64,000 bases of DNA from Gemmatimonadaceae bacterium. GTDB lineage: Bacteria; Gemmatimonadota; Gemmatimonadetes; Gemmatimonadales; Gemmatimonadaceae. The notes beneath the pieces were generated by a model. That model did not search any database, was not told where the DNA came from, and saw only the letters and a list, made by a program, of their open reading frames with translations. The position numbers and the translations under genes were made by a program. The stretch lies in assembly GCA_016742275.1 (NCBI GenBank), contig JACVCD010000014.1, positions 1-64,000 of the forward strand, read 5' to 3'. Every line of letters begins with the position of its first letter. Positions within the stretch are counted from its first letter, which is position 1. Positions 2,365 through 64,000 of the stretch are shown piece after piece.

Positions 2365-3542
2365 GCGGCCAAACCAGTCGGCAGGCCAGCCGGTGTACGC
2401 AGTTGCACCACGAATCGTGCACCCGTTGCGGCATCGTCACGGGGCTCAAAACGAATCGTACCACCCATTCCATCCACCAGCGTGCGGACGATGGTGAGCC
2501 CGAGTCCTGTGCCAGCGCCACGCAATCGCTCATGTACTCCGCGTTCAAATGCATGCCACATGCGTTCGCGGTCTTCGGGGGGCACGCCAGGTCCTTCGTC
2601 TTCCACCAGAACCTCGACCTGCTCACGGGATTGCCGCACACTCACCCGTACGTCCTGCGATGGCGGACCATATTTCACCGCATTGTCGAGCAGATTGAGT
2701 ACGACCTGCCGCATGGCGTCGTGATCACCAACAGCGTATGTGTCCATCTCCGGCACACTCACCGACAGCCGTGCCGACGACGCGAATGGTGCGAAGTGCG
2801 CTGTGGTCTCCCGAACAATGGCCGACACATTCACGACCTGCTGCTGCAGCACATCCGTACCATGTTCGATGCGTGTGAAGCGCAGCACGTTCTCCACCAG
2901 ACGTGACAGACGACGTGTTTCCTGCTCGATGGCCTGCATGGCAAAGGTGTGCTCGTCCTCATTGCGTGTGCGTCCCAGTCGAACGGTTTCCGCGAACATG
3001 AGAATCTGCGCCAGCGGTGTTCGCAGTTCATGAGACACCACGCGCACGAAATTCGATCGCTGCGCGGTCGACAGATGCTCGCGTTGCAGACGTAGCAAAA
3101 CCCAGGCACCGAGGATGCACGTCAGGGCGAGCCCCACGCTCACCAGGAGTTGCAACGTCTGAGGCATACCCGGCGCCATTGGAAAACCGGGTGTGTCATT
3201 GCGTCGGACAATTACGGTGCGTGAGTCACTGGCTGAGCCGATTCGTGCCAGCGGAGCACCAATGACTTCCGTACTGTCGCGCTGGAGAGCCGGCGACTCG
3301 AGCGCCAACCCGGTGCTGTCGAGCAGTCGTACGAGTGCGGGAGTCACTGGTTCTGCGGCCGGTACTGAGGCGGCCAGATAGGTCGCCACCTCACGCTGCA
3401 ACCGGAGACCAGCCTGCCGCTGTGCCCGTCCCAGACTGTACGACGCCAACACCAGCCAGAGCAGCAGACCACCCACAAGGCTGAGCAGCACAGTGAAATC
3501 GGTCGTCGGCGAGCGGCCGACACGTGGGGCAGGGGCGAGCAT
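2361..3542 (-). CDS. Membrane sensor histidine kinase (HisKA + HATPase_c)
   Basis: VVSHELRTPLAQI H-box, NLLDNAVKYG N-box, VEDEGPGV and GTGLGLTIV; overlaps the response regulator by 4 bp; start chosen at MLAPAPRVG. Confidence 0.92.
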   Translation of the reverse strand: MLAPAPRVGRSPTTDFTVLLSLVGGLLLWLVLASYSLGRAQRQAGLRLQREVATYLAASVPAAEPVTPALVRLLDSTGLALESPALQRDSTEVIGAPLARIGSASDSRTVIVRRNDTPGFPMAPGMPQTLQLLVSVGLALTCILGAWVLLRLQREHLSTAQRSNFVRVVSHELRTPLAQILMFAETVRLGRTRNEDEHTFAMQAIEQETRRLSRLVENVLRFTRIEHGTDVLQQQVVNVSAIVRETTAHFAPFASSARLSVSVPEMDTYAVGDHDAMRQVVLNLLDNAVKYGPPSQDVRVSVRQSREQVEVLVEDEGPGVPPEDRERMWHAFERGVHERLRGAGTGLGLTIVRTLVDGMGGTIRFEPRDDAATGARFVVQLRTPAGLPTGLAA

Positions 3543-59422: not shown

Positions 59423-61158
59423 TGCTATCAGTGCTCCGCGGCATTCCGGCGTCGCCGGGAATCGTCGTGGGCCCTGTGCACCTCCTCAGGTGGGAGGTGC
59501 CGGAAGTTCGGCATCGTCTCATCGACGATGCGGAAATCGAAAGCGAGATTGCGCGTTTCCATGAAGCGCTGGACAAGGCGCGAGTGCGCTTGCGGTTGCT
59601 GCGGGCTCGCACCGAAGCACAAGCTGGCCCCAAGGAGGCCGCGATCTTCGATGTGCAGCTCTCCATGCTCGACGATGGAGAGATGGTAAAGGCGCCCATT
59701 GCCCTCATTCAGCAGAATTTGGGCGCCGAAAAGGCTTTTGATTTTGTGATGGCGGAGTGGCGTCAGCATTTTGCGCGATCGAGTTCGCCCATGCTGCGCG
59801 AAAAAGTGGGTGATCTCACCGACATTCACATTCGTGTGCTGTCGCTGTTGCTCGAATTGCCGGACCATGATCCCGTGGACGTGCCACCAGGCAGCAATGC
59901 TATCCTGGTCACGCACGATCTCACGCCATCGCTCACCATGCAGCTCGATCGCAACTGCATTGGCGCGATCGCCACCGAAGCCGGTACGGCCACCGCACAC
60001 GTCGCCATTCTCGCGCGCTCGCTCGGACTGCCCGCAGTTGTTGGTTTGCGCCAGGCGTTGTCCGCGTTGCAGGGCGGGGAAGTGGCCATCCTTGACGGCA
60101 CCGACGGTACGCTGGTCATTGCCCCTACCGATGATGAAGTGGCGGCAGCCAAGCATCGTGTGGAGGAAGAAGCCGGGCGCGCCGATGTCATGCGCGAACT
60201 CGCGCACAGCGAGCCTGTCACGCGGGACGATCATCGCATGGTCGTGCGGGCCAATGTCGATATTCCCGAGGAGTCCGAGCTGGCCGCGCAGAGTGGCGCG
60301 CGCGGCGCTGGACTCATGCGCACGGAGTTCCTGGTTGTCGGCCGCGCTAGCATGCCCGACGAAGAAGAGCAGTACGCGTCGTACTCGCGCGTGGCGCGCG
60401 CCTTCGCGGGCGATGCGGTCATCATTCGTACATTCGACGTAGGTGGCGACAAGCTGCCCGTTGGCGGATTCCCGCACGAAGCCAATCCGTTCCTCGGCTG
60501 GCGCGCCATTCGCATGTGCCTTGATGAAAGCGAATTGTTCAAGGTGCAATTGCGGGCGTTGCTGCGCGCGGCCGTGCACGGCGATTTGCGCATCATGCTG
60601 CCGCTGGTCGTCACGGTGGACGAAGTGCGAGAAACCCGTCAGCTCATCAGCGAGTGCGTTGAGGAACTGGCAGAGCGTCGAGTGCCATTCCGCGCTGACG
60701 TGCCATTGGGTGTGATGGTGGAAACACCCGCCGCCGCCGTGGCCTGCGATACGCTCGTGCGTGACGTGGACTTCTTCAGCATTGGCTCCAATGACCTGGT
60801 CCAATACACGCTGGCCGTTGACCGTGGCAATGCCAACCTCGCGCCGCGCTACACGCCATTTCACCCGGCAGTGCTGCGTCTCATGCAACAGGTGCAGACC
60901 ACCGGTGCCGCGCACGGACTCGATGTGAGTGTGTGTGGTGAAATGGCGTCGCAGCCCTTGGCCGTCTTTGCACTCATGGGGCTTGGCATTCGGCATCTGA
61001 GCGTTGCGCCGCGTGCCGTGGCCGATGTCAAGCGCGTCATTCGTGGCGTGCGGGCGGAAGCGGCGGCGGATGCCGCACGGGCGGCTCTGGCCGCAAGCAC
61101 CGCGCGTGAAGCGGAAACGCTGCTGCGCCGTCGGCTGCGCTCGGAACTCGAGCGCTAG
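59422..61158 (+). CDS. ptsI: PTS enzyme I (phosphoenolpyruvate-protein phosphotransferase)
   Basis: GIPASPGIVVGPV, EAGTATAHVAILARSLGLPAVVG, GARGAGLMRTEFL, DFFSIGSNDLVQYTLAVDRGN. Confidence 0.97.
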   Translation: MLSVLRGIPASPGIVVGPVHLLRWEVPEVRHRLIDDAEIESEIARFHEALDKARVRLRLLRARTEAQAGPKEAAIFDVQLSMLDDGEMVKAPIALIQQNLGAEKAFDFVMAEWRQHFARSSSPMLREKVGDLTDIHIRVLSLLLELPDHDPVDVPPGSNAILVTHDLTPSLTMQLDRNCIGAIATEAGTATAHVAILARSLGLPAVVGLRQALSALQGGEVAILDGTDGTLVIAPTDDEVAAAKHRVEEEAGRADVMRELAHSEPVTRDDHRMVVRANVDIPEESELAAQSGARGAGLMRTEFLVVGRASMPDEEEQYASYSRVARAFAGDAVIIRTFDVGGDKLPVGGFPHEANPFLGWRAIRMCLDESELFKVQLRALLRAAVHGDLRIMLPLVVTVDEVRETRQLISECVEELAERRVPFRADVPLGVMVETPAAAVACDTLVRDVDFFSIGSNDLVQYTLAVDRGNANLAPRYTPFHPAVLRLMQQVQTTGAAHGLDVSVCGEMASQPLAVFALMGLGIRHLSVAPRAVADVKRVIRGVRAEAAADAARAALAASTAREAETLLRRRLRSELER

Positions 61159-61411
61159 TACTCTGGTCGCAAGTCTGCGATGCAACTAGGCGATCGATTG
61201 GCTGCGTTTGCTGAGCTGCATTCTCGATCGATAGGTACAGGAGAAGTCTGCTGGCGCGGTGGGGGGCAATAGCGCGGCCATTTGATTGAGGAGATCCATG
61301 AATGACGAGCAAGTGCATGGTGGGGCGAGATTATGCTTTCCTCGCCGAGACAATCTGGACGGTGATCGCATCCGCAGACGTGCGTTGCTCGGTCATCTAC
61401 AGGCTCAAACA

Positions 61412-61451
61412 GGAGGGGAATCGCACTCTTCCATGTTGCGATTCCTCCTCC
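61412..61451. other. Strong stem-loop in the ptsI/beta-propeller intergenic region
   Basis: GGAGGGGAATCGCA ... TGCGATTCCTCCTCC; no T-tract; lies between convergent genes. Confidence 0.45.
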
Positions 61452-61573
61452 AGGGTTCACTACCTGATCAAACACTCCCTAGCACATAGTGGGTTCGTCA
61501 GCGCGATTGGCGTCATCACCCAACTCGTTGAGAGGCATCGTTTCTCGCACTTCACTACCCAGGTGTTTCGCAA

Positions 61574-62695
61574 TTACTTCTCGTGCAACACTTGGCATGT
61601 GCCGGGCGGCACCAGGTACCGATTCAATAGCGACACTACCTTGTCGCCACGAATCTCCTGCTCAAGCGATAGCAGTGTGTCACCGACGACAGTCAGGCGC
61701 GGAGGAATATCTGAATTCGTTGCGAGCGGAAGATCTATACATGCTTTTGTCCGATCCGCCGAAATTACGGTTAGGAAGAACGAGCCAGCAAAGTTCGTCC
61801 CACGGAGCTTGCCGTCGACGAACACGATCACGAGGCGACCGTCCGCCAATCGCAGTACTGACCATGGCATCGATGCTCTCTCTAGTACGGCAGGAACGTT
61901 CGCAAGCGCATCTTCTTTCACCGACGGCATTCCCCTCCGGCGGCTCCTCGGAATGCGGATGTCGCGAATGACGCTGCCGTCGCTTCGCATAAGCCGGAGC
62001 GTTTCTGAGAGGCCAATCGAGTATGCTAGTGTGTCCGACCACGAGGTGACCAGAACGTCGAACAGAAATCGCGAAGTGGGATGCCCCGAAAAGTCGACGG
62101 GAATCGCGCCAAATCTTCTCGCGGAGTCGGACGTTTCGGCTAAGTCCGTGAATAGCGTGCCACTACGCGCATCGGGCGCCGCAGAGACCACACCGCGTTC
62201 GCTTAACGCGAGCGCAGGGGACCGGCCACCGACGGCGCGTATGCGTCGTTCACGGGAGTGTTTCGTATCCCAGAAAATGATTCCACCGCGACCAATATCG
62301 CTCACAAGCAGTGTCGAGTCGTCACGGACGAGGATCGGAGACGGAGTTTCAAACTCTCCTGGCCCACGGCCACGTCGACCGATTACTCCCGTTAACCCAC
62401 CGCCGACACCAAATCGCAGGATGGAACGAGAGAATCCGTCGACGGCATAAAGGTCGCCTGATCGCGACATGGAGATCGAAACCGCACGGCCAAGGAAGAC
62501 TTTGCCAGAGTCGCGGAGCTCAACGGCGGATACACGTTGCAACCCTTGCTTGTTGATGTCTGCCGGCGCAGGAGCAGCGCAACCGTGAACGAGTAGAACG
62601 TTGATCCCAACCGCGAGTACTGCTCTCTTACTCCGATGCAGGTGACTTAAACCTACGGAATCGCTCAAGGATGGCGCGCCGCGAGCTGGCATCAT
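61574..62695 (-). CDS. 6-bladed beta-propeller lipoprotein
   Basis: Lipobox-like INVLLVHGC; blade motifs SGDLYAVDGFSRSILRFGVGGGLTGVIGRRGRGPGEFETP; start uncertain. Confidence 0.78.
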   Translation of the reverse strand: MMPARGAPSLSDSVGLSHLHRSKRAVLAVGINVLLVHGCAAPAPADINKQGLQRVSAVELRDSGKVFLGRAVSISMSRSGDLYAVDGFSRSILRFGVGGGLTGVIGRRGRGPGEFETPSPILVRDDSTLLVSDIGRGGIIFWDTKHSRERRIRAVGGRSPALALSERGVVSAAPDARSGTLFTDLAETSDSARRFGAIPVDFSGHPTSRFLFDVLVTSWSDTLAYSIGLSETLRLMRSDGSVIRDIRIPRSRRRGMPSVKEDALANVPAVLERASMPWSVLRLADGRLVIVFVDGKLRGTNFAGSFFLTVISADRTKACIDLPLATNSDIPPRLTVVGDTLLSLEQEIRGDKVVSLLNRYLVPPGTCQVLHEK

Positions 62696-63092
62696 TGTTT
62701 GCAGAGTCGATGAGTGCTCGGCCCTTGTCATACACAAGTACTCCGAAATGAAGGCGTGGTTTAGCCGAAGATAGGACTCCGATCACCGCCAACCGCGACT
62801 GGGCGATCGGAATCGATTCGTGCGACGCGGCGCGGCGGGTCAGCAGTACGACGACCTTAACCCGACCCTCAAGCTGAAGCCGGTTCCAATCGGCGAAGTC
62901 TGAATCACAGGAGAGGCACTGGTCTGGCGAGTATATCAACACGGCGACGCGCTCACTAGCAGGCAGCAACGCTGCAATGTCTGCTTGCGAGTGAATCTCG
63001 GCAGTGTGAGTGTCCGCAGCGTCGGGCTTGGAGTTGCACCCCAACGGCGCAACGCAAACAAGCCACAGTAACAACGAAATCACGGGTCTCAT
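62628..63092 (-). CDS. Thioredoxin-like (CxxC) lipoprotein
   Basis: MRPVISLLLWLVCVAPLGCNSK lipobox; VAVLIYSPDQCLSCDSDFADWNRL thioredoxin-fold-like CLSC motif; start at 63092. Confidence 0.7.
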   Translation of the reverse strand: MRPVISLLLWLVCVAPLGCNSKPDAADTHTAEIHSQADIAALLPASERVAVLIYSPDQCLSCDSDFADWNRLQLEGRVKVVVLLTRRAASHESIPIAQSRLAVIGVLSSAKPRLHFGVLVYDKGRALIDSANNDASSRRAILERFRRFKSPASE

Positions 63093-63098
63093 GGTACC

Positions 63099-63137
63099 GC
63101 TTGGAGCGAGGACGCGATGTCGCGCCTCGCTCCAAGC
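63099..63137 (-). other. Intercistronic stem-loop between the small peptide gene and the thioredoxin-like lipoprotein gene
   Basis: GCTTGGAGCGAGG[A]CGCGA..TCGCGCCTCGCTCCAAGC: 18 complementary bp with one bulged base. Confidence 0.85.
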
Positions 63138-63144
63138 TCTCGGT

Positions 63145-63345
63145 TCAAGTGATGATGATTGGAGGCATGATTCGGCACGGGCAATGGGCATCCCAGTCAC
63201 CAGCGCCACACGGCTTGCACCAGCCTGTGTAGAAGTCGACGTATGCGCGAGTGCCACCTTCCTCGGCAGAGACTCTGGTCGGGATTGCGAAGAGCCCTGC
63301 ACCAATTACAGCTGCCGCCGCGACTGAGCTGATTCGTCGAAACAT
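63145..63345 (-). CDS. Small secreted Cys-containing peptide precursor (66 aa)
   Basis: AGGAG 6-7 nt before ATG; signal peptide MFRRISSVAAAAVIGAGLFAIPTRVSA; mature EEGGTRAYVDFYTGWCKPCGAGDWDAHCPCRIMPPIIIT. Confidence 0.72.
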   Translation of the reverse strand: MFRRISSVAAAAVIGAGLFAIPTRVSAEEGGTRAYVDFYTGWCKPCGAGDWDAHCPCRIMPPIIIT

Positions 63346-63687
63346 TTGAAGCTCCTGCGAGAATGATGAATGATTGCTGGCACGACCGCTTGCCCGATTA
63401 CGCATGTGACGCTCGGCGACGAGCTGCTACTCAAGTACATTGCTGTCAAAGATTCGAGGGTCTACTCGTAATGGCCATTGGGCCGCAGCGCAGCGAGTAT
63501 GCAGCGAGAACGCCACCGCCGCAAGATTCAGGTAGGAAGCGCGGCCGTCTGGGGAGATAAGATGAGGGTTGGCGGGGCACCCGTGGAAGGTTTACGCGGC
63601 TCTCGGCGCCCAGTTCCAGGCGCGGCATCGGCCGATTTCGGCCTGCCTCGCCGCGTGGGCCGACACTACGTGCCCTACGACCTTAGC

Positions 63688-64000
63688 TTATACCGCATTC
63701 GGTACAGATTCGCACTTCTTTGCCAGCGCGCGGTAACGCACCCAAGTAAAGCGCCATCGGCGCTTGATGACTTGAAACGGACAATCGACCATGGCGCGAA
63801 CTCGTGGGGCGAGCGCTCGCCGTTCTGGTTCACCAGGTTCAGGTAGCTGCTCAATTGCCACTGCAGCTTGTAGTCGGCGGACTCTGCGTCGGTCGTCGTG
63901 ACTGTGTGGATCACGCCGTGACGATCCGTGCCCACAGACACCTTCATGCCGAAATACCATATGATCTCGGGATCACGGGTCTGCGTGGCATTCTTCGTCG
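63688..64000 (-). pseudogene. IS5-family transposase remnant (internally deleted and frameshifted, runs off window)
   Basis: One frame ...TRDPEIIWYFGMKVSVGTDRHGVIHTVTTTDAESADY, other frame VDCPFQVIKRRWRFTWVRYRALAKK; central transposase region missing. Confidence 0.75.

Follow-up and report, generated by a model that had tools for sequence, protein, structure and literature searches.

The locus analysed here raises the question of whether a short exported cysteine peptide and the two lipoproteins encoded beside it constitute a functional module and, if so, what such a module may do. Soils and sponges harbour Gemmatimonadota in abundance; to our knowledge, few secreted peptides are known from this phylum, and small open reading frames (ORFs) of such a kind easily go unannotated. 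The stretch of DNA analysed (the window, 64,000 nucleotides) belongs to a Gemmatimonadota genome of 4.57 Mb, in which it lies on contig C25. On its minus strand, genes for a Cys peptide, a thioredoxin-like (Trx-like) lipoprotein and a beta-propeller lipoprotein follow one another in this order (Table 1), the last two overlapping, an arrangement proposed in the initial annotation and borne out by the ORFs and by the signal-peptide and lipobox sequences.

Table 1. Features of the cassette and its surroundings, in window coordinates.
Feature	Position	Strand	Basis
Cys-peptide precursor gene, 66 aa	63145..63345	-	ORF, AGGAG, relatives
RNA hairpin between the peptide and Trx-like genes	63096..63144	-	Folding energy, z score
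Thioredoxin-like lipoprotein gene, 154 aa	62628..63092	-	Lipobox Cys19; CLSC at 59-62
Six-bladed NHL-like beta-propeller lipoprotein gene (predicted fold), up to 385 aa	61574..62731	-	Start uncertain
Window part of inserted segment, ptsI to metK	61159..64000	.	Genus ptsI loci; low GC
Transposase remnant (DDE_Tnp_1-like) flanking the cassette	63675..64000, runs past the window	-	Pfam

The peptide gene (ATG at 63345, stop at 63145, coding 63148-63345) is preceded by a Shine-Dalgarno sequence, AGGAG, at about 63352-63356, six bases before the ATG. Its product starts with a hydrophobic signal sequence of about residues 1-27, with likely cleavage between VSA and EEGG, and the mature part, EEGGTRAYVDFYTGWCKPCGAGDWDAHCPCRIMPPIIIT, contains four cysteines. 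The Trx-like gene (ATG at 63092, stop at 62628, coding 62631-63092) specifies a lipobox, ...VAPLGC, and an active-site-like SPDQCLSC, while the propeller gene (stop at 61574, coding 61577 to about 62731) specifies the lipobox ...LLVHGC with Cys51; signal peptides and lipoboxes were called from the sequence by eye and with simple rules. Since the propeller may start at ATG 62731 or at an in-frame start further downstream, its overlap with the Trx-like gene amounts to about 17-104 bp. Consensus promoters, which are uninformative in Gemmatimonadota, were not found, and a search for defence systems with PADLOC gave no meaningful match.

The cassette is an insertion, acquired as an accessory gain at a junction that is a variable site in the genus. 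Around ptsI, 25 loci of the genus have metK no more than about 1.3 kb away, and most of them no more than about 0.1 kb. In the window genome, ptsI ends at 61158 and metK starts at about 64.75 kb, outside the window, and the intervening stretch of about 3.6 kb contains the cassette and the transposase remnant. The latter begins at 63675 as a DDE transposase fragment that falls just under the cut-off of Pfam DDE_Tnp_1 (E 2.5e-4). The GC content of the cassette is 58.1% versus 62.3% (z = -2.9 among same-size windows) and its GC3 is 0.59-0.64 versus 0.71 +/- 0.05. These boundaries agree with the initial annotation, in which the cassette was flanked by the PTS operon on one side and an IS remnant on the other and was described as less GC-rich than the core and accessory; the compositional difference is real but moderate, and the gain is upheld by the proximity of ptsI and metK in the genus together with the low GC. 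The junction carries different cargo in L306 (G180:C15) and L277 (G278), from different species of the genus.

Judged from sequence, the Cys peptide forms a separate precursor family, fast-evolving and patchy. Single-sequence matches in 395 Gemmatimonadota genomes were weak, occurred in 140 genomes and were mostly spurious; they were retained only where the Cys skeleton was present and a propeller lay alongside. The family itself was revealed by profile and propeller searches and by inspection of 69 propeller loci. Its skeleton comprises a signal peptide, an aromatic/acidic stretch, C-x2-3-C, a spacer, C-x0-1-C and often a PII[V/T] tail, and the number and spacing of cysteines vary widely (CC, CxC, CxCxC). 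The peptides of L016, L020 and L029, whose genes are flanked by a DPSQCFSC lipoprotein gene and a propeller gene, align without gaps across the mature core (Y-x-D-x-Y...C..CGA...D..C-x-C..M.PII). A filter combining a ribosome-binding site, a signal peptide and C-x2-3-C...C-x0-1-C, a Cys pattern derived from the family itself, returned exactly one ORF in 128 kb (both window strands), the 66-residue peptide; applied to the 1 kb upstream of the 69 propeller homologues, it gave matches in 18/69 on the sense strand and in 0/69 on the antisense strand, used as the control. One close group of peptides is under purifying selection (dN/dS 0.18-0.44), and a second, looser group has values of 0.47-1.03. 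No peptide matched a Pfam or NCBIfam family; NVEALA (PF14055) matched none of them at E<=0.1 and nothing in the window genome, and its motif is absent, in agreement with the earlier proposal of a separate precursor family lacking this motif.

Derivation of the peptide from a thioredoxin was considered and rejected, both as a protein truncated after WCKPC, where TIGR01068 matches only 15 residues (E 0.019), and as a broken copy, given that the ORF ends at 66 residues and that the C-x3-C of relatives stands without thioredoxin context. Two different Cys peptides are encoded in tandem ahead of one propeller at L117 (about 3110-3531). At L050 (G247:C32) other DNA, possibly mobile, interrupts the peptide gene, of which just the tail CWCYVMDPIIIIVDGE is left before the propeller.

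Homologues of the small ORF, which the initial annotation expected beside propeller/Trx-like pairs in relatives, were found there, in other families of the class, and the cassette is a conserved module. Among propeller loci with full flanks, 14 have both the peptide and the Trx-like gene, one the peptide only, two the Trx-like gene only and 38 neither (Fisher p 4e-10), the labels resting on our own filters; one of the two loci with the Trx-like gene only, L121, also has a peptide. The genomes are largely draft or metagenome-derived, and contig ends hide some neighbours. As the propeller loci are related to each other, the test was repeated on the propeller tree, in which some long branches are unsure; there, 12 informative independent pairs were concordant and none discordant for the peptide and the Trx-like gene (p=0.0005). 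Supported branches force at least 14 label changes, so that the two genes have been gained and lost together repeatedly. When the search was started from the Trx-like family, a propeller was present within 1.5 kb in 29/30 of the best loci, and new members with further peptides were added. The tight pair is that of the peptide and the Trx-like gene; the propeller almost always adjoins it but also occurs alone.

The three genes occur in at least five different orders: peptide-Trx-propeller (the window, L129 and L271), Trx-peptide-propeller (L016, L098, L108, L134 and others), peptide-propeller-Trx (L101, L104 and L131), propeller-peptide-Trx (L261) and propeller-Trx-peptide (L269). The linkage has thus been kept despite rearrangement. 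Besides the three genes, none recurs at module loci. In L269 (G338:C4, 822-2781), from the same genus, two co-oriented genes come after the module: the first encodes an ABC ATPase, for which the best NCBIfam model is TIGR03740 (lantibiotic-protection ATPase; E 5.6e-49, below cut-off), and the second, in the permease position, a membrane protein with no family match. An ABC gene adjoins the module in this locus only, and its best model hints at self-protection for the module.

The Trx-like family, present in 31/395 genomes, matches no Pfam or NCBIfam model and shares the motif [DS]P-x-x-C-[FL]-x-C. A thioredoxin-like fold with the CxxC is predicted for the window protein (AF2 model, pLDDT 75), the top Foldseek matches being of the TlpA/ResA/CcmG/thioredoxin type with high probability and a weak E of only about 3e-3. 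Members at L121, L122, L268, L270 and L272 have lost the first Cys of the CxxC and retain the second; because this is so at L121 and L122 and yet a peptide lies alongside, a simple dithiol oxidase cannot be the general function.

The propeller lipoprotein has a predicted six-bladed NHL-like fold (AF2 model, pLDDT 82), and Foldseek matched it to NHL six-bladed propellers, with E down to 3e-11, and to the Bacteroides lipoproteins 3s9j and 4raa. Cys331 and Cys379, near the C-terminus, are conserved. DUF5128 (PF17170) reaches E 0.47 and 10 bits in the window propeller, below the gathering cut-off of 22.9, and matches 8/38 propeller relatives at E<=0.01 (best E 6.5e-8). In Bacteroides, the 6-bladed beta-propeller gene BT0664 appears in an iron-stimulon table (PMC10434189). 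Contigs were scanned for propellers with a six-row alignment, a 19-row alignment being too diverse. Lone propellers that are 84-98% identical to module propellers occur without the peptide or the Trx-like gene, and their similarity to the module is confined to the propeller gene with a short stretch beside it. Since propellers occur alone, they evidently serve a purpose even where no peptide is encoded, which is more in keeping with a receptor or protection function than with maturation; these lone copies, and the loss of the first Cys in some Trx-like members, set limits on the view that both lipoproteins mature the peptide, one of the roles suggested in the initial annotation. Alternatively, the propeller might have a separate binding role, with the peptide-Trx pair a mere neighbour.

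Stand-alone propellers close to those of the module are found at L092-L097, L112 and L118-L120 and are possible orphan immunity or receptor genes. The window genome encodes a second propeller, 28% identical to that of the cassette, without a peptide or Trx-like gene (L006; G000:C31:13420-14466). Small exported Cys peptides of a different pattern lie beside propellers at L184, L214 and L218, on contigs labelled Chloroflexota, Aminicenantes and Rhodothermus, and the link between propellers and peptides may extend beyond this peptide family.

Directly 3' of the peptide stop codon lies an RNA hairpin of -36 kcal/mol (z -5.7), which, having no T-run, is not a standard terminator. Hairpins with z < -4 and unrelated stems occupy the same position at L129, L134, L269 and L271; strong hairpins follow the peptide in 5/24 peptide loci versus 3/95 other gene ends examined as controls, and are absent in lineages where the peptide abuts the propeller. 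Hairpins between precursor and helper genes are known from bacteriocin operons.

The reading that we favour, and to which we would give an even chance, is an accessory system for a secreted disulfide peptide, whose cysteines would be handled by the Trx-like lipoprotein and which the propeller would bind. Sec would export the 66-residue precursor, and cleavage would leave a mature peptide of about 39 residues with four cysteines. Anchored on the outer side of a membrane, the Trx-fold lipoprotein would form, shuffle or keep reduced the C-x2-3-C and C-x0-1-C pairs, and the propeller lipoprotein would bind the mature peptide, acting not as an enzyme but as a receptor or a partner in self-protection, a role in which it could persist alone. 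The hairpin 3' of the peptide gene would allow an excess of peptide over both lipoproteins. The peptide would then be released and, being fast-evolving and patchy, would most likely play a strain-variable antagonistic or signalling role. This reading leans on the joint gain and loss of the peptide and Trx-like genes, the export signals, the diversification and patchiness of the peptide, the orphan propellers, the ABC ATPase of L269 and the hairpin. More tentatively, and in our view somewhat unlikely in its full form, the module may represent an undescribed class of Gemmatimonadota secreted disulfide peptides with a private Trx-like folding lipoprotein and a propeller receptor or immunity protein, the free-standing propellers then being orphan immunity or eavesdropping receptors.

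That a spurious 66-residue ORF fell by chance beside two unrelated lipoprotein genes could be suspected from its small size and from a first list of single-sequence matches that was mostly weak, but the sense-antisense contrast of the ORF filter, the loci with relatives, the co-occurrence, the dN/dS values and the tree-controlled pairs refute it, and we regard its probability as negligible. A periplasmic redox or metal relay, with the peptide as carrier, the Trx-like lipoprotein keeping it reduced and the propeller as acceptor, has several points in its favour: CxxC and CxC spacings are typical of metal and redox sites, the predicted Trx fold is nearest to TlpA/ResA/CcmG, which are reductants, and the peptide and Trx-like genes are gained and lost jointly. 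Nevertheless, the varied cysteine number and spacing and the fast divergence are unlike a carrier with a fixed partner, and together with the orphan propellers they make such a relay unlikely.

The same three parts, namely a small Cys-rich secreted subunit, a propeller and a Trx-like helper, are found in the methylamine dehydrogenase operon, so that the peptide could resemble MauA, the propeller MauB and the Trx-like protein MauD. Many mature peptides lack Trp, however (for example L108 and L110), which rules out a family-wide tryptophan (TTQ) cofactor, made from two Trp of the small subunit; moreover, the propeller matched six-bladed NHL folds, with no heavy chain of a dehydrogenase among its 50 best matches, there is no Pfam match to such subunits and no other mau-type gene recurs, and an enzyme of this kind is very unlikely. 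According to the initial annotation, NVEALA peptides (PF14055) are often encoded near propeller proteins in Bacteroidota, and a divergent offshoot of that exported-peptide group with the same kind of propeller partner would account for the short exported Cys peptide, for the structural likeness to 3s9j and 4raa and for the DUF5128 matches of some relatives. We consider it improbable, in view of the missing PF14055 matches and motif described above and of the lack of any NVEALA match in 148 genomes sampled from another phylum, the one to which L225 belongs. A literature search returned no paper with NVEALA, nor any combining Gemmatimonadota with relevant terms.

The trio recurs across the phylum, rearranged, fast-changing and in no named family, which points to an undescribed secreted-peptide system: a peptide family that is recurrent, mobile and fast-evolving, comes with dedicated helper genes and has no curated model. 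The loci form a concrete set on which a three-protein mechanism can be tested. They also suggest a possible role, the binding of secreted peptides, for propeller lipoproteins, which are common and have no known function.

Several known systems share parts of this organization. Bacteriocin and lantibiotic operons resemble the module in their small precursor gene, in the hairpin that follows it and in a dedicated helper, and a protection-type ABC ATPase lies near the module in one relative (L269); in place of a bacteriocin leader, the module peptide has a putative Sec signal peptide, and, unlike lantibiotic/RiPP systems, the module has no modification enzyme or dedicated exporter. The propeller of the methylamine dehydrogenase operon appears to be of another type. 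With TlpA/ResA/CcmG the Trx-like lipoprotein shares a membrane anchor, the CxxC and the predicted fold, but it has no Pfam/NCBIfam match, its motif is [DS]P-x-x-C-[FL]-x-C and its first Cys is dispensable in some members. The predicted fold and lipoprotein nature of the propeller are those of DUF5128 (PF17170), from which the window copy differs in scoring below the cut-off and in its two conserved cysteines in the C-terminal region. NVEALA systems, as described in the initial annotation, would likewise combine a short exported Cys peptide, its signal peptide here recognized from sequence, with a propeller lipoprotein of the same broad fold; the Gemmatimonadota module is set apart by its phylum, its regular Trx-like partner, its C-x2-3-C...C-x0-1-C core and its PII[V/T] tail.
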